Source: Planctomycetota bacterium (GTDB lineage: Bacteria > Planctomycetota > Planctomycetia > Pirellulales > Pirellulaceae). From it: 64,000 bases of DNA. A model generated the notes under the pieces. The model saw only the letters and a list, made by a program, of their open reading frames with translations, made no database searches and was not told where the DNA came from. The stretch covers positions 1 through 64,000 of the forward strand of contig JAPLNL010000011.1 of the NCBI GenBank assembly GCA_026692905.1, read 5' to 3'. The position numbers were made by a program, and so were the translations under genes. Shown piece after piece: positions 30,945-42,094 of this stretch. Positions within the stretch are counted from its first letter, which is position 1. Each line of letters starts with the position of its first letter.

Positions 30945-31260
30945 CCGTGGGATAGGCTTCCAGCCTGTCGATCTTGCTACGAAACACGCGAATCATACGA
31001 AAATGTCGTAGCGAAACTCGTCAAGAGTTTCGGTCGTTTAGGCTATGCAACCGAAAGTCTTGACGACTTTCGCTACACCAAAGTCTAATTTGGCAGAGCA
31101 AGAAGCTTCACAGCGTTGCCAACTCTCTCAAAGCTCTTTTTTTGGATCATAATCCGTACGGTGGTCTGTTCCGAACAGTACAATCGAAGTTTGCTGATTC
31201 TTCCTGTCGTTGGTTATCTTGCGACACCAGCGTTAAACCTTCCACGACTTAGGTGGCTCT
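30945..31260. repeat. Two hairpin repeats before the 169-residue gene
   Basis: At 30947-30972 lies one arm (GTGGGATAGGCTTCCAGCC) of a palindrome that is complete at 40783-40839. At 31008-31076 an inverted repeat pairs GTAGCGAAACTCGTC with GACGACTTTCGCTAC (imperfect). No gene is seen in this stretch; a promoter for the next gene probably lies at about 31180-31230. Confidence 0.6.
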
Positions 31261-36455: not shown

Positions 36456-38954
36456 ATGCACAATCGTGGAATGATTGCAAAGGCAATCGGCGCACTTGCC
36501 CTTGTTTTAATAGGCGGATTTTTGCTCTCGGCAAGCGTTTTTGGCCAAGCTGCCGAGGCGACTTCACCTGCACCGGTGGAAACGGCAACGCATGCACCCG
36601 GTGGCGAAGCAAATTTAATTCTTCCAGACATTGGCAAAGTTCCTTTCTTCGGTATCCCAGGGACGTACTTGCTGTATGCAGGACTGTTGGTCTGCGTTGC
36701 CGGCTTGTACTTTGGGATGCGGATCTACCGTGAGCTTCAAAATATGCCTGTTCACTCGACCATGCTCGAGGTCTCCGAGTTGATCTATGAGACGTGCAAA
36801 ACGTATCTGATCAATCAAGGCAAATTCATGGCCGTCCTCTGGGCCTTCATCGCGATTGTGATCGTAATGTACTTTGGTTGGCTCTCCGAAATGACACCAT
36901 TCAAAGTCGGAATCATCGTCTTTTTCAGTATCGTCGGAATCTTGGGCAGCTATGGTGTGGCATGGTTTGGAATCCGCGTCAACACGTTCGCCAACTCGCG
37001 AACGGCTTTTGCAAGTCTCAAAGGGCTGCCTTATCCGGTTTACGCAATTCCAATCAAAGCGGGGATGAGCATCGGAATGATGCTGATCAGCGTCGAGCTG
37101 TTGATCATGCTCTGCATTTTGTTGTTCATTCCTAGAGAGTACGCGGGCTCTTGCTTCATCGGCTTCGCCATCGGTGAAAGCCTCGGAGCCGCTGCGTTGC
37201 GAATCGCGGGTGGTATTTTCACGAAGATCGCCGACATCGGCTCCGACTTGATGAAGATCGAATTCAAAATCAAAGAAGACGATGCTCGCAATCCAGGGGT
37301 CATCGCAGACTGCACCGGCGACAACGCGGGCGACTCGGTCGGGCCAAGCGCCGACGGATTCGAAACGTATGGTGTTACCGGCGTGGCTTTGATCACCTTC
37401 ATTCTGCTGGCGGTGACCAAGAAGGCTGGCGATGACTACGAAACCATTCAAGTGCAATTGCTGGTCTGGCTGTTCGTGATGCGGGTCATGATGATCGTCG
37501 CCTCGTTTGTTTCTTACTACATCAACGAAAAATGGACGCAAGCCAAGTACGCGACGGCTGCCAAGATGGACTTCGAAATGCCTCTGACCCGTTTGGTTTG
37601 GATCACCAGCCTCATTTCCATCGCGATTACCTATGCCGTGTCGTATCTCATGATTCCTTCGTTGTCTGGGAACAATCAGCTTTGGTGGCAACTATCGACG
37701 ATCATTTCGTGTGGAACGTTTGCAGGCGCTCTGATTCCGGAACTGGTCAAAGTCTTTACCTCGACAAGTTCGAAGCACGTGAAAGAAATCGTGACTTCGA
37801 GCCGCGAGGGTGGTGCATCGCTGAACATCCTTTCCGGATTGGTGGCGGGCAATTTCTCTTGCCTTTGGCTGGGTGCGGGTATCGTTGGTTTGATGGCCAT
37901 TTCCTATGGAATTTCAACGCAAGGGCTCGGTAAGCTCATGGAGGCCGAGGCGGTCTTTGCGTTCGGTTTGGTTGCCTTCGGATTCCTCGGCATGGGGCCG
38001 GTGACCATCGCGGTGGATTCGTATGGACCAGTCACCGACAACGCGCAAAGCGTCTTCGAACTATCCCTCATCGAGCAAGTGCCCAACATTCACGCCCAGC
38101 TAAAATCGGAGTATCAAATCGATGCGAACTTCGAAGAAGCCAAGTACTTGCTCGAAGAGAACGACGGAGCCGGGAACACGTTCAAGGCGACAGCCAAGCC
38201 CGTGCTGATCGGAACGGCAGTGGTCGGCGCGACCACGATGATTTTCTCGATCATCATGTCGTTGACACATGGTCTGACGACACACCAAGAGAAGCTGTCG
38301 TTGCTTTACGCTCCGTTCGTGTTGGGACTCATCTCCGGTGGCGCCATTATCTATTGGTTCACAGGTGCATCCATTCAAGCGGTGACCTCGGGAGCGTATC
38401 GAGCGGTCGAGTTTATCAAAGCCAATATCAAACTGGATGGCGTCACCAAAGCATCCGTAGAAGACAGCAAGAAGGTCGTCGCAATCTGCACTCGGTTTGC
38501 CCAATTGGGGATGTTCAACATTTTCATGGCCGTCTTCTTCATCACGCTAGGCTTAGCTTTTATCGAACCTTTCTTCTTTGTTGGCTACCTATTCTCAATC
38601 GCAATTTTCGGGCTCTATCAAGCGATCTTCATGGCCAATGCGGGTGGAGCTTGGGACAATGCCAAGAAGATTGTGGAGGTGGAGCTCAAGCAAAAGGGGA
38701 CTCCATTGCACGACGCGTGCGTGGTCGGCGATACGGTCGGCGATCCGTTCAAGGACACTTCGAGCGTGGCATTGAATCCGGTGATCAAGTTCACCACCCT
38801 CTTCGGCTTGTTGGCAGTCGAACTGGCGGTTAAGCTCAAGGAGGTCAAGGGGCCTGAGCTCGGTATGTGGCTGGCAATCGGTTTTTGCAGCGTCGCAACG
38901 ATCTTCTTTTGGCAATCCTTTTACGGTATGCGAATCAAGAGCGAGAAAAAGTAA
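36456..38954 (+). CDS. hppA: Membrane-bound pyrophosphatase (ion-pumping)
   Basis: An 832-residue membrane protein with about 16 hydrophobic segments that couples pyrophosphate hydrolysis to H+ or Na+ pumping. Recognisable parts: GGIFTKIADIGSDL, EDDARNPGVIADCTGDNAGD, GGAWDNAKKIVE and VVGDTVGDPFKDTSS. Usual enzymes read DVGADLVGKVE at the first site; here it is DIGSDLMKIEFKIKEDD, so it belongs to a divergent subfamily. The Lys in GNTFKATAK at the A/K position fits a K+-independent pump. An extra signal-like N-terminus (ALALVLIGGFLLSASVFG) precedes the usual core. AGGAAAAAAG lies before the ATG. The HDAC gene follows after 3 bases. Confidence 0.9.
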   Translation: MHNRGMIAKAIGALALVLIGGFLLSASVFGQAAEATSPAPVETATHAPGGEANLILPDIGKVPFFGIPGTYLLYAGLLVCVAGLYFGMRIYRELQNMPVHSTMLEVSELIYETCKTYLINQGKFMAVLWAFIAIVIVMYFGWLSEMTPFKVGIIVFFSIVGILGSYGVAWFGIRVNTFANSRTAFASLKGLPYPVYAIPIKAGMSIGMMLISVELLIMLCILLFIPREYAGSCFIGFAIGESLGAAALRIAGGIFTKIADIGSDLMKIEFKIKEDDARNPGVIADCTGDNAGDSVGPSADGFETYGVTGVALITFILLAVTKKAGDDYETIQVQLLVWLFVMRVMMIVASFVSYYINEKWTQAKYATAAKMDFEMPLTRLVWITSLISIAITYAVSYLMIPSLSGNNQLWWQLSTIISCGTFAGALIPELVKVFTSTSSKHVKEIVTSSREGGASLNILSGLVAGNFSCLWLGAGIVGLMAISYGISTQGLGKLMEAEAVFAFGLVAFGFLGMGPVTIAVDSYGPVTDNAQSVFELSLIEQVPNIHAQLKSEYQIDANFEEAKYLLEENDGAGNTFKATAKPVLIGTAVVGATTMIFSIIMSLTHGLTTHQEKLSLLYAPFVLGLISGGAIIYWFTGASIQAVTSGAYRAVEFIKANIKLDGVTKASVEDSKKVVAICTRFAQLGMFNIFMAVFFITLGLAFIEPFFFVGYLFSIAIFGLYQAIFMANAGGAWDNAKKIVEVELKQKGTPLHDACVVGDTVGDPFKDTSSVALNPVIKFTTLFGLLAVELAVKLKEVKGPELGMWLAIGFCSVATIFFWQSFYGMRIKSEKK

Positions 38955-38957
38955 TCG

Positions 38958-39905
38958 ATGCTACTTTATCACCACCCCGACTTTGCATTGCATGACACCA
39001 AGAGCCATCCAGAATCGGTGGCTCGCATTACCCGTGTCAATCAAATGCTAACGGACTCTGGGTGGATAGGTAAATGCACGCTTCCAGCTTGGAAACCGGC
39101 GACCGCCGAGCAATGCGAGCGAAATCATCCTCAAGCCTATTTGAAGGAGCTTGAGGATTGGTGCAAGCATGATGCAGGCCGAGTGGAGGTGGACACCGTC
39201 GTTTCCACAGGGTCATGGACTGCCGCCACGTTGGCTGCGGGTGCCGTTTGCGATGCCGTGCAGCGGGTGGTTGCGGGCGAGGACACGACGGCCTTCTGTG
39301 CCATTCGTCCTCCAGGGCATCATGCCATGCCAAACTCGGCCATGGGCTTTTGTTTGCTCAACAACATTGCGATAGGGGCATTGCAGGCACGTGCCTTGGG
39401 ATTGAACAAAGTTCTTATAGTCGATTGGGATGTCCATCATGGCAATGGGACTCAAGCGACATTCTGGGAAGAGCCCACCGTGGGCTTTGTATCTATCCAT
39501 CGTTTCCCGTTCTATCCAGGGACCGGAAAGGCCGAGGAAACAGGAAGTGGCCGAGCCCTCGGTACGAAGGTCAATATCCCGGTTGCGGCAAGCGTTCCGC
39601 CCGAAGAGTTTCTGAAGCGACTGTACGATTCAACAGAGAAGCTCGCCAATGCGATGAAGCCGGATTTGATTTTGCTCAGCGCAGGCTTCGACGCGCACCG
39701 CAACGATCCAGTTGGCGGACTAACATTGGAAGCGGAACATTATCGGCAAGCTGGTGAGTGGATCGCACAATTGGCTCGTCACCACTGTGGTGGCAAAATG
39801 GTTTCCATCTTAGAAGGTGGCTACCATCTCAAGCACATGCCCGAATGCGTCGACGCTCATCTGCAGGGTATGCTTTTTGATTTTGCTCCCCTCGCCCCTT
39901 TTTAG
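38958..39905 (+). CDS. Histone deacetylase-family amidohydrolase
   Basis: A Zn-dependent deacetylase of the HDAC/AcuC/acetylpolyamine amidohydrolase class, 315 residues. Motifs: HHPDFALHDTKSHPES at the start, RPPGHHAMPNSAMGFC with the catalytic His pair, VDWDVHHGNGTQ (Zn ligands Asp and His), SAGFDAHRNDPVGGL (Zn ligand Asp), and the catalytic Tyr in LEGGYHLKHMP. The substrate could be an acetylated protein or polyamine. It starts three bases after hppA, so one operon. Its last codons (PLAPF and stop) lie in a dispersed CCCCTCGCCCC repeat, so the natural C-terminus may have been replaced. Confidence 0.9.
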   Translation: MLLYHHPDFALHDTKSHPESVARITRVNQMLTDSGWIGKCTLPAWKPATAEQCERNHPQAYLKELEDWCKHDAGRVEVDTVVSTGSWTAATLAAGAVCDAVQRVVAGEDTTAFCAIRPPGHHAMPNSAMGFCLLNNIAIGALQARALGLNKVLIVDWDVHHGNGTQATFWEEPTVGFVSIHRFPFYPGTGKAEETGSGRALGTKVNIPVAASVPPEEFLKRLYDSTEKLANAMKPDLILLSAGFDAHRNDPVGGLTLEAEHYRQAGEWIAQLARHHCGGKMVSILEGGYHLKHMPECVDAHLQGMLFDFAPLAPF

Positions 39906-39924: not shown

Positions 39925-40732
39925 AGGGGTTTTGCACTCGGGTGGCTTCTAAATCTTGGTCTTAATTGCCTAGATCGTTTCAGAAGTCTAAACAAATCGA
40001 TGGCCAGGAGACTTACGAGGCCAATGACAAACGGCGCCAAGATTCCTTGGTCTTGAGTGGTCGTAATGGCGATGATTCCAGTCGTGATTCCGATTAGAAA
40101 AATTAGCGGTTGGACTCGGGTGCGACCAGCGAGACTTGCCGAAAACCAGCCAAGCAACGGCTGCTAAAACCCAGCTTCCAAAAAGACCGCATAGCATCGG
40201 AAGCGAATATAAAGAATCTACGTTGTTTCGCAGTTGATAACAGCAAAATGCAACCAAGAGGCCGGAACAAATTGCAAAGTCCACCCAACCATGCGGATGC
40301 AATTTGGAACATATACGGAGCCAAACGACACTGCAAAAGCCGAACTTTGCGTTGGCACGTAATTGGCGACGACTTCACCGGAACGACCGTCCCGAACTGC
40401 AATCGAAACGCCATCGTCGAGCAGGCTCAAGATATACGACTTCATCGTCGGAGCTCATACAAGAACCGCTTTTGGGTTCCTGCGCTAGATGGAAAATTCG
40501 GTTCTGTCACCAAAAAGCTCTTCGTATCTTTGATATGCTCCAGTCTTATCGGAGGGGGAGTTGGACATGGAATGGAATCCACAGTTGTTCCGCTAAAGAA
40601 ATCGTCTGAGTCCATTTTCCCTGGTCGTAACCGAATGGCATGCTTGTCTACTATGCATAGCGATTCACTATACTCCTGATTCGAAAGCTGGATCTCTCGA
40701 GTCTGCATTGCGTCGCTGGCTTTCATGTCCAT
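39925..40732 (-). pseudogene. Decayed or frameshifted small membrane protein
   Basis: On the minus strand, successive frames carry pieces that look like parts of one or two small genes. 40732-40442 is a hydrophilic piece. 40445-40218 (overlapping it by ATGA) begins SYILSLLDDGVSIAVRDG. Another frame (40302-39988) has FAICSGLLVAFCCYQ and CGLFGSWVLAAVAWLVFG. A third (40157 downward) continues PLIFLIGITTGIIAITTT and FVIGLVSLLAIDLFRLLKR. Reading them in turn gives four hydrophobic segments interrupted by at least two frame changes, at about 40290 and 40140. Function unknown. Confidence 0.4.
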
Positions 40733-40782
40733 CCATTGCCAAACGACTTGATCGTCCGGTTTTGGTTTTTGCGTCTCAAACG

Positions 40783-40839
40783 GTGGGATAGGCTTCCAGC
40801 CTGTCGATTCAGTCGAGACAGGCTGGAAGCCTATCCCAC
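40783..40839. repeat. GTGGGATAGGCTTCCAGCC palindrome
   Basis: Perfect arms GTGGGATAGGCTTCCAGCC(TGTC) and (GACA)GGCTGGAAGCCTATCCCAC around a loop of about 11 bases, followed by TTTTTT on the plus strand. A single arm occurs at 30947-30972. It may also end upstream transcription just before the aroF leader promoter. Confidence 0.8.
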
Positions 40840-40854
40840 TTTTTTGTATGGCTC

Positions 40855-40883
40855 TTGCGTTTCCCGACTGCGTGAACCATAAT
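40855..40883 (+). promoter_or_regulatory. Predicted sigma70-type promoter of the aroF leader
   Basis: TTGCGT (40855-40860) and CATAAT (40878-40883) are 17 bases apart. The -10 matches the consensus in 5 of 6 places, the -35 only in TTG. Transcription would start at about 40890, directly at the ATG of the leader peptide, giving a leaderless or nearly leaderless leader ORF. Confidence 0.5.
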
Positions 40884-40890
40884 CACTCGC

Positions 40891-40971
40891 ATGATTCACA
40901 GCTTCGCAAACTTTTCGTTCTACTACTTTACCGAGTCCCGTTCGGGCCTGTGGAGTTTTGTCGGTAGCTAA
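40891..40971 (+). CDS. Aromatic-rich leader peptide of an attenuator
   Basis: A 26-codon ORF. Residues 5-13 read FANFSFYYF, and W21 and F23 follow before the TAA, so eight of 26 residues are Phe, Tyr or Trp. It lies 106 bases upstream of DAHP synthase, the entry enzyme for aromatic amino acids, and is followed after 24 bases by an intrinsic terminator. Such composition and position are those of leader peptides that sense charged aromatic tRNAs by ribosome stalling. No clear Shine-Dalgarno sequence precedes the ATG. Confidence 0.75.
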   Translation: MIHSFANFSFYYFTESRSGLWSFVGS

Positions 40972-41029
40972 GCGAATCGAACCAAAACAATTCCCAACCT
41001 CAAGGCCAAACACCTTGAGGTTTTTTTTT
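40945..41029 (+). promoter_or_regulatory. Attenuator: antiterminator and terminator of aroF
   Basis: The terminator is AACCTCAAGG (40996-41005) paired with CCTTGAGGTT (41013-41022), then a T-run to 41029. An alternative pairing joins GGCCT (945-949), GAG and TT (to 40957) with AACCTCAAGGCC (40996-41007), and so captures the 5' arm of the terminator. The upstream strand of the antiterminator begins 16 bases after the FYYF codons. A ribosome stalled there leaves it free; a ribosome that reaches the stop codon covers it and lets the terminator form. Confidence 0.7.
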
Positions 41030-41077
41030 GCTCTGAACGACCTTGCTCGTTCTCCTTCCAATTGGAGTTAGTCGAAA

Positions 41078-42094
41078 ATGATCGTCGTGATGGAAAAGTC
41101 GTCGTCAGACCAACAAATCGAACACATTGCCAAACGCATCAGTGAACTTGGCCTCAAATCACACGTCATTCGAGGAACCGAACGGACTGTGATCGCCGCC
41201 GTGGGTGACGACCGCAAAATCAAAGTTGAATCGTTTGAGAGCTATCCAGGCGTTTCCGAAGTTCTCCCTATTTTAGCGCCGTACAAGATGGCTTCGCGCG
41301 AAGTGCGTGCGGACGCTTCGCAAATCAAAGTTCTCAATTTCCGAGCTGGCAACGGAGCGGTCGGTGTCATGGGCGGCCCATGCTCAGTGGAAAGCGAAGA
41401 ACAAATCATTGCCTCCGCGCGAGCCGTTCGAGATGCTGGCGGAACCGCACTTCGCGGTGGTGCGTTCAAGCCTCGAACGAGCCCCTATGCATTTCAAGGT
41501 ATGAAGGAAGATGGCTTGAAGTTGTTGGCCCTAGCTCGCCAAGAAACCGGCTTGGCGGTTGTGACTGAGGTCATGAGCCCAGAGGATGTCGAGTTGGTGG
41601 CCAAGTATGCGGACATTCTCCAAATTGGCGCCCGCAACATGCAAAACTATCGGCTACTCGAAGCGGTCGGAAGATCGGGCCGTGCGGTGTTGCTCAAGCG
41701 AGGACCGAGCGCCACGATCGAAGAGTGGTTGCTGGCGGCGGAATACATTCTCAACGAAGGCAACCCGGACGTCATGCTCTGCGAACGCGGTATTCGCACT
41801 TTTGAATCGCACACGCGATTCACGTTGCCACTCGCAACGGTCCCTTACTTGCATCGCAAAACGCACTTGCCAGTCATCGTCGACCCAAGTCATGGTACGG
41901 GTCACTCGTATCTTGTTACCGACATGGCAGCGGCCAGTGTCGCCGCAGGTGCGGATGGTTTGATCGTCGAAATGCACCCGAACCCCGAGAAGGCATTGAG
42001 TGACGGCTATCAGTCTTTGGACTTCGCCCAGTTTCATGCGATGATGAAAAAATGCAAAGTCATCGCAGATGCCTTGGGCAAGCAATTCGGCTAG
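41078..42094 (+). CDS. aroF: 3-deoxy-7-phosphoheptulonate (DAHP) synthase
   Basis: It condenses phosphoenolpyruvate and erythrose-4-phosphate, the first step of the shikimate pathway. The 338-residue protein has the N-terminal ferredoxin-like regulatory domain ([17 protein letters not shown] to about residue 70) that in the Thermotoga-type enzyme mediates feedback by Tyr/Phe. The barrel then carries [12 protein letters not shown] (about residue 98), [44 protein letters not shown] and VDPSHGTGH. Expression is probably controlled by the attenuator just upstream, so both transcription and enzyme activity may respond to aromatic amino acids. Confidence 0.93.

Follow-up and report, generated by a model that had tools for sequence, protein, structure and literature searches.

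The question raised by this locus is whether a planctomycete adjusts its DAHP synthase to the supply of aromatic amino acids by means of a translated leader. The window (the whole analyzed stretch of 64,000 nucleotides, from a member of the Pirellulaceae) contains, immediately upstream of aroF, a short open reading frame (ORF) rich in aromatic codons and an intrinsic terminator. With a probability of about 90 %, and judged from sequence, aroF is proposed to be under the control of a ribosome-mediated (leader-peptide) transcription attenuator. The controlled gene and its translation signal are the following:

41064..41067, + strand: GGAG, Shine-Dalgarno-like site of aroF, read from the sequence; 57 of 73 sequences under comparison have a Shine-Dalgarno-like match ahead of aroF
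41078..42094, + strand: aroF, DAHP synthase (3-deoxy-7-phosphoheptulonate synthase) with ferredoxin-like domain (NF006421, TIGR01361, PF00793, PF18152)

The attenuator candidate thus precedes a gene of the matching pathway, the aroF product scoring above the cut-offs of both NF006421 (486 bits, cut-off 335) and TIGR01361 (380 bits, cut-off 268) and combining a PF00793 domain with an N-terminal ferredoxin-like domain (PF18152). Among DAHP synthases other than the plant type, a search of the own genome (5.96 Mb, 148 contigs) found no further close homologue and a single other relative, 33 % identical. Further upstream (36456-39905), the window harbours a gene for an H+-pyrophosphatase, directly followed by a gene of the histone deacetylase family.

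The region between promoter and aroF comprises the following elements:

40891..40971, + strand: leader ORF of 26 codons, MIHSFANFSFYYFTESRSGLWSFVGS, probably leaderless; read from the sequence, with an aromatic leader recurring in relatives
40918..40929, + strand: control codons Phe-Tyr-Tyr-Phe; an aromatic run occupies the same place in leader-bearing relatives
40925..40931, + strand: segment 1, pairing with 40950-40956 (1:2 anti-antiterminator); predicted in the minimum-energy fold, with weak comparative support for the equivalent helix
40945..40957, + strand: segment 2, antiterminator strand; comparative support, in the window alone not above chance
40996..41007, + strand: segment 3, comprising the terminator's 5' arm (40996-41005) and two bases of the loop that are drawn into the antiterminator helix as well
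41013..41029, + strand: segment 4, made up of the terminator's 3' arm (41013-41022) and the T-run (41021-41029)

Coordinates of the 26-codon ORF and its count of eight aromatic residues (F5, F8, F10, Y11, Y12, F13, W21, F23) agree with the original prediction. The terminator was likewise recovered where it had been placed (40996-41029), with a stem of 40996-41005/41013-41022, a loop of 7, nine T and a stability of -13.9 kcal/mol. It is the only one in a scan of 40500-41400, a region whose shuffled versions yield a mean of 1.1, and its T-run ends 48 nt before the DAHP synthase gene. Also correct is the distance of 16 nt between the Tyr/Phe codons and the antiterminator strand, since FYYF ends at 40929 and the strand opens at 40945. 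The late Trp and Phe are a different matter. W21 (40951-40953) lies on the antiterminator strand and F23 (40957-40959) at its edge, so that a ribosome stalled there would mask the strand; the two codons are therefore not plausible as sensing codons, even though they belong to the count of eight. An ORF with aromatic codons, an intrinsic terminator and a pathway gene are present in the window, and an antiterminator is supported across the relatives.

Transcription of the leader is attributed to two hexamers:

40855..40860, + strand: -35-like hexamer TTGCGT, 17-nt spacer, 3 of 6 positions as in the consensus; its TTG is kept in relatives
40878..40883, + strand: -10 hexamer CATAAT, separated from the leader ATG by 7 nt; the spacing is kept in relatives and predicts a start point on or beside the ATG

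A generic sigma-70 scan of 40500-41400 reported no promoter. The -10 box and its 7-nt distance to the leader ATG were nevertheless found as predicted, and their position is shared by relatives: 53 of 73 leaders have a -10-like hexamer whose end lies 6-7 nt from the start codon, compared with 5.7 % of other positions and with 15 of 274 other ATGs of the same regions at the same spacing. Of these 53 leaders, 52 carry TTG 16-18 nt upstream of the box, whereas each of three control spacings gives 3 or 4. Shine-Dalgarno-like matches (GGAG, GAGG, AGGA or AAGG, 4-16 nt before the start) precede only 2/73 leader starts as opposed to 57/73 DAHP synthase starts. From the promoter spacing, transcription is expected to start at or next to the leader ATG, and the leader of the window is probably leaderless. 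By kinship, the -10 spacing is found with 13/14 leaders of the genus, 31/40 of the order and 1/22 of other orders of the class; predicted leaderlessness is therefore a trait of the order and not of the class. Just upstream of the promoter (40783-40845) lies a long palindrome, GTGGGATAGGCTTCCAGCCTGT...ACAGGCTGGAAGCCTATCCCAC, and after it a T-run; its arm is seen again at 30950-30968 of the window and near a trpE-like gene (L270).

Whether the arrangement is more than a local coincidence was assessed with orthologues drawn from four levels of kinship (genus, family, order and class). An ORF counted as a leader if it measured 8-60 codons, lay no more than 450 nt upstream and had at least 5 F/Y/W in 9 residues; a terminator had to follow. 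Leader plus terminator precede the DAHP synthase gene in 14/22 same-genus genomes, 36/52 from the other genera of the order and 18/38 from other orders of the class (leader rule alone: 14/22, 40/52 and 22/38, respectively). Upstream of a roughly 50 %-identical paralogue the combination was found in 0/19 regions and a leader by the rule alone in 2/19, and none of the reverse complements of the genus, order, class and paralogue sets passes the leader rule. Grouped by protein identity, 166 upstream regions differing in their last 200 nt comprise 113 with at least 62 % identity to the window protein and 52 with 40-62 %, one region below 40 % being excluded. At least 5 F/Y/W in 9 residues are encoded by 73 of the 113 orthologue upstream regions, versus 1/113 reverse complements and 14/565 shuffles; at least 6 in 9 by 58/113, versus 0 reverse complements and 1/565 shuffles. 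The 40-62 % group, a mixture of the paralogue and other phyla, passes in 17/52 cases (reverse complements 4/52, shuffles 10/260). A chance ORF can be dismissed on account of this recurrence (73/113 orthologue upstream regions versus 14/565 shuffles). Close relatives are counted separately in these figures, the 73 leaders falling to 63 upon collapse at 85 % identity, and leader choice was automatic with some starts possibly wrong (e.g., L003, L038).

The leaders contain on average 4.1 F, 2.1 Y and 1.1 W, and 58 of the 73 have all three residues. The order of residues within the run varies while the F/Y/W class is kept, and the N-terminal flank varies as well. Conservation of the aromatic class with variable order would be expected if the leader, placed before the gene for the first and shared reaction of the pathway, sensed charged aromatic tRNAs. 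The same pattern bears on the proposal that the terminator is a constitutive, partial one ending a short upstream transcript, the aromatic ORF being incidental or encoding a micropeptide, in either case with no regulatory role. A micropeptide would not be expected to retain a residue class in shifting order, and leader, terminator and spacing recur together over order and class but are absent as a combination at the paralogue. In favour of a simple partial terminator are four same-genus genomes (L018-L021) that keep the terminator in the absence of an aromatic run, and the weakness of the antiterminator in the window itself (see below). Weighing in the pairing data described next, this explanation is considered very unlikely.

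Two observations were made beyond the orthologue set. Aromatic leaders with terminators are also found outside the class, before DAHP synthases of Geobacteraceae, Desulfuromonadales, some other Deltaproteobacteria and Thermodesulfovibrionales (L117, L119, L123-L127, L129, L131, L133, L136, L148); those of Geobacter and relatives include FYFWFGFYFRPSARG, and several have a TTGACA placed for a transcription start near the ATG. In other genera (L053, L060, L063, L064 and L069), the roughly 50 %-identical paralogue sits after an ORF ending in WIESFPI...FFVELEGH, which we take to resemble the ACT domain of prephenate dehydratase. In view of this location behind a prephenate dehydratase-like ORF end, the two DAHP synthases may be under separate kinds of control.

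Three helices of the leader RNA were evaluated in a structural alignment of 39 leaders, hand-picked from 50 for alignability, so that counts from it lean towards typical members. The terminator is paired in 90.1 % of its cells (at most 57.1 % when slid), has compensatory changes in 11/13 pairs, and its covariation score was reached by 0/500 shuffles; it is also the only helix that RNAalifold predicts from the alignment. The antiterminator is paired in 69.7 % of cells versus 28-53 % when slid, and its covariation score was reached by 4/500 shuffles. Two of its five covariation measures are unremarkable, i.e., doubly changed pairs and pair types (reached by 178/500 and 241/500 shuffles, respectively), and sliding by +1 gives 29 doubly changed cells as compared to 26 in place. 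For the 1:2 helix, 27/500 shuffles reach the covariation score and a -1 slide scores higher. The alignment thus points to strong covariation of the terminator, moderate covariation of the antiterminator and weak covariation of the 1:2 stem.

Pairing energies were calculated, without recourse to this alignment, for 63 leaders (of the 73, four have no terminator by the rule applied and one has it inside the ORF; the remaining 68 were collapsed to 63). Between the stretch following the aromatic run and the 5' arm of the same leader's terminator, the mean pairing energy is -20.2 kcal/mol, compared with -14.1 kcal/mol after shuffling (n=63, p 1e-11) and -16.4 kcal/mol when segments are swapped between species (n=63, p about 1e-7), these p-values being optimistic because the sequences are related. 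Segments 2 and 3 hence on average fit their own partner better than those of other species, which argues against a terminator that merely happens to follow an aromatic ORF. Leader by leader, at most 5/100 shuffles match the own pairing in 41/63 cases, and more do so in the other 22. When the first nine bases past the aromatic run are taken as covered and the 3' arm as still absent, the terminator 5' arm is paired upstream with a mean probability of 0.59 versus 0.44 for shuffles (p 3e-8, n=63), 21/63 leaders standing out individually.

In the window copy, the pairing of 40945-40957 with 40996-41007 postulated by the original prediction amounts to -11.2 kcal/mol, with 43/100 shuffles as good (283/1000 for slightly different segments; 15/60 by pairing probability). 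This pairing is thus backed across relatives, where it surpasses shuffled and swapped segments, but is at chance level in the window taken alone. The 1:2 helix of the window is predicted in the minimum-energy fold. With 40945 onward free and the 3' arm absent, the RNA folds at -18.1 kcal/mol; once the 3' arm is present, the terminator fold is favoured at -25.3 kcal/mol. Since the terminator fold prevails over the antiterminator at equilibrium, the switch would have to be decided kinetically.

A covariance model built from the 39 leaders (R1) matches the window with 79.6 bits (E 1.7e-19), the window itself being a training row. The best R1 match reaches E <=1e-9 in 74/117 genomes of the order, a count that includes the training genomes and, for unfetched genomes, matches irrespective of whether they lie before aroF. 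At E 0.01, 17/117 genomes have no match, and 13 of these 17 belong to a single family (f8).

The conservation in close relatives on which the original prediction depended holds for 14/22 same-genus genomes but is not universal, since 8/22 orthologues lack a leader that passes the threshold. In two of them, L008 and L014, the aromatic run is weaker and reaches 4 in 9, and L012 and L013 show neither leader nor terminator, the upstream stretch reading like the end of another ORF near aroF. In L018-L021, -10 box and terminator are kept and the aromatic run is absent; all four have an ORF that begins with a GTG placed 7 nt behind the -10 box, extends across the terminator and finishes in an ATGA that overlaps the start of aroF. 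This variant may represent either a degenerate or a different switch. On the whole, the alignment of relatives for conserved aromatic leader codons and covarying stems mostly bore out what had been predicted, and the reading as a Phe/Tyr leader-peptide attenuator before aroF is supported by the comparative evidence.

In the proposed mechanism, RNA polymerase would start at or next to the leader ATG, as suggested by the promoter spacing, and a ribosome would load on the 5'-terminal AUG with no need of a Shine-Dalgarno site. If charged Phe- and Tyr-tRNA are ample, the ribosome would reach the stop codon and cover segment 2, leaving the 3:4 terminator to halt transcription about 140 nt from the start. 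If charging of Phe- or Tyr-tRNA falls short, the ribosome would stall on Phe-Tyr-Tyr-Phe and cover segment 1; segment 2 could then pair with the terminator 5' arm before the 3' arm is made, resulting in readthrough into aroF. In case of no translation, 1:2 and 3:4 would form and transcription would end. Translation, stalling and the direction of regulation are deduced steps of this scheme.

Two other kinds of sensor may be considered for the same leader. In an arrest-peptide sensor, exemplified by TnaC, a free amino acid is bound in the ribosome tunnel; here, the nascent peptide would bind free Phe, Tyr or Trp, and its arrest, instead of uncharged tRNA, would determine termination. The part of the peptide that follows the run (often GRGAGG) does recur across families. 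The stretch coding for GRGAGG is also the antiterminator strand, however, so that RNA pairing explains its recurrence; moreover, residues of the run are interchangeable among F, Y and W, the N-terminal flank is variable, and the sign of regulation would presumably be unusual for a biosynthetic gene. Peptide-dependent arrest is accordingly rated as even less probable than an unregulated terminator. A T-box (tRNA-binding) element or a metabolite riboswitch would conform to the position of a terminator in front of an amino acid synthesis gene. No aptamer-like fold was found upstream, RNAalifold giving the terminator only. An Rfam search of the window stretch returned no family at gathering score; the six matches up to E 10 concern unrelated families and all stay below half of the gathering scores. 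T-box and riboswitch were rejected on this ground and have hardly any likelihood left.

Elements resembling the leader-peptide attenuator of aroF were encountered before genes of other amino acid pathways. Around secondary or atypical R1 matches, 20 further stretches were chosen, 19 in other genomes and one in the own genome. A Leu-rich leader precedes a terminator in 17 of these 20 (in L246 via an alternative start), all from other Pirellulales (L239-L243, L245-L249, L251-L257; e.g., MPNLLLSLLLLLPPSSRP). The next long ORF is isopropylmalate synthase-like (leuA-like) in 13/17, as judged by eye with a family check on one; that of L252 lies 450 nt away. Such leaders before leuA-like genes are probable leucine attenuators. 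One R1 match (L244) consists of a terminator alone before an unrelated ORF.

The stretch from the own genome (L238/L271; G000:C61:12389-12536, minus strand) is a second, weaker R1 match (E 2.7e-5), in which the leader MNPKSTYFPQVIMIPHRD and a terminator precede a citramalate synthase-like gene; this assignment relies on TIGR00977 as best match of a 255-residue fragment, below the full-length cut-off. Relatives among L272-L294 share an IIIP leader, a GGCCTTGGGG-like stretch past the stop codon and a CCCCTGAAGCC-type terminator. Of 26 citramalate synthase loci in the genus, 24 were counted (one is short, one partial). An ORF with at least 3 Ile in five residues, typically IIIP before the stop, is present in 17/24 (16 without L280, where the counted ORF is not the expected one), a terminator in 23/24; the own-genome copy scores two Ile. 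The IIIP-leader element is regarded as a candidate isoleucine attenuator. In each case the leader residue matches the pathway, i.e., Leu for leuA and Ile for citramalate synthase.

In the own genome, stretches of 901-1101 bases around leuA, ilvB, pheA (PDT) and two trpE-like starts contain no product-rich leader with a strong terminator. Weak hairpins occur at ilvB and at the two trpE-like genes, and several of these positions have short ORFs in which some Leu, Ile or Val is encoded. The leuA element of other Pirellulales is therefore not seen at the leuA gene of this genome. One may tentatively speculate, although the odds are rather against it, that the Pirellulales possess a network of attenuators with leaderless ORFs as a rule, in which one RNA architecture (an AUG at the very 5' end, sensing codons, a G-rich strand for the antiterminator and a CCCC-type terminator) is re-keyed by exchange of its sensing codons (aromatic ones before aroF, those for leucine before leuA and those for isoleucine before citramalate synthase), leaderlessness having been measured on aroF leaders only. 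In such a network, an ORF that begins at the 5' end could tie ribosome loading to the position of the polymerase and thereby set the timing of the switch.

If the proposal is true, amino acid attenuation coupled to translation operates in a phylum for which open-access literature yielded no published case. Planctomycetes have an unusual cell plan, which makes coupling of transcription and translation of interest in this group. A promoter anchored on the start codon in most leaders of the order would moreover render leaderless translation testable by mapping of 5' ends, and together with the leuA and citramalate synthase candidates the regulation of amino acid synthesis in planctomycetes becomes directly testable.

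The original prediction knew of no description in planctomycetes, and a search of open-access literature, which covered few subscription papers, likewise found no published planctomycete leader-peptide attenuator. In their accessible parts, PMC12125101 names none of this kind, PMC4833913 deals with leader-gene distances and names no planctomycete attenuator, PMC2864571 lists a Rhodopirellula-1 motif in a table, and PMC1262725 describes actinobacterial attenuators.

The other comparisons with published systems likewise draw on the accessible parts of the papers concerned. In the attenuators of E. coli pheA, pheST and trp, segments pair as 1:2, 2:3 and 3:4, stalling takes place at codons of the product amino acid, and the leader is preceded by a 5' UTR with ribosome-binding site. 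The aroF leader has the three-segment switch in common with them, but the target genes are others and the ribosome-binding site in a 5' UTR sets the E. coli leaders apart; the latter are covered as leader-peptide attenuators in PMC11802643. Closest with respect to the target gene is the aroR leader attenuator upstream of aroF in Corynebacterium glutamicum (Neshat et al. 2014 as cited in PMC4046766, PMC11802643), where a leader peptide with Phe-Tyr-Phe attenuates a DAHP synthase gene, albeit in another phylum and with a shorter aromatic run (FYF). In Acholeplasma, attenuation was proposed for the uORFC-13-1 motif upstream of aroF (PMC8632094, which also mentions an older hypothesis on E. coli aroF). 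This motif agrees in having a short ORF with Phe codon(s) and then an intrinsic terminator; it differs by its ribosome-binding site, its narrow range (Acholeplasma and environmental sequences, 24 representatives) and its demand for at least one Phe, as opposed to the mixed F/Y/W run reported here. For Shewanella aroF, an "attenuator sensing tyr-tRNA" is listed in a table from cited literature (PMC2659441), i.e., attenuation at a DAHP synthase gene was proposed there as well, in an entry that gives no structure.

Leaderlessness, originally considered unusual for an attenuator, is predicted for most leaders of the order and has precedents: the attenuator leader ORF of Sinorhizobium meliloti trpL is located at the 5' end of the transcript (PMC7298713), and the ilvBNC attenuator of C. 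glutamicum is discussed as a leaderless mRNA (PMC11857589). Both differ from the present case in amino acids, genes and phyla, and the attenuated RNA and the peptide of S. meliloti trpL have the additional feature of also acting in trans. The mechanism as such is therefore known, and so are attenuators of aroF (Corynebacterium, Acholeplasma) and attenuators of the leaderless type (Corynebacterium, Sinorhizobium); new are the phylum, the recurrence across the class and the sister candidates with Leu before leuA and Ile before citramalate synthase.
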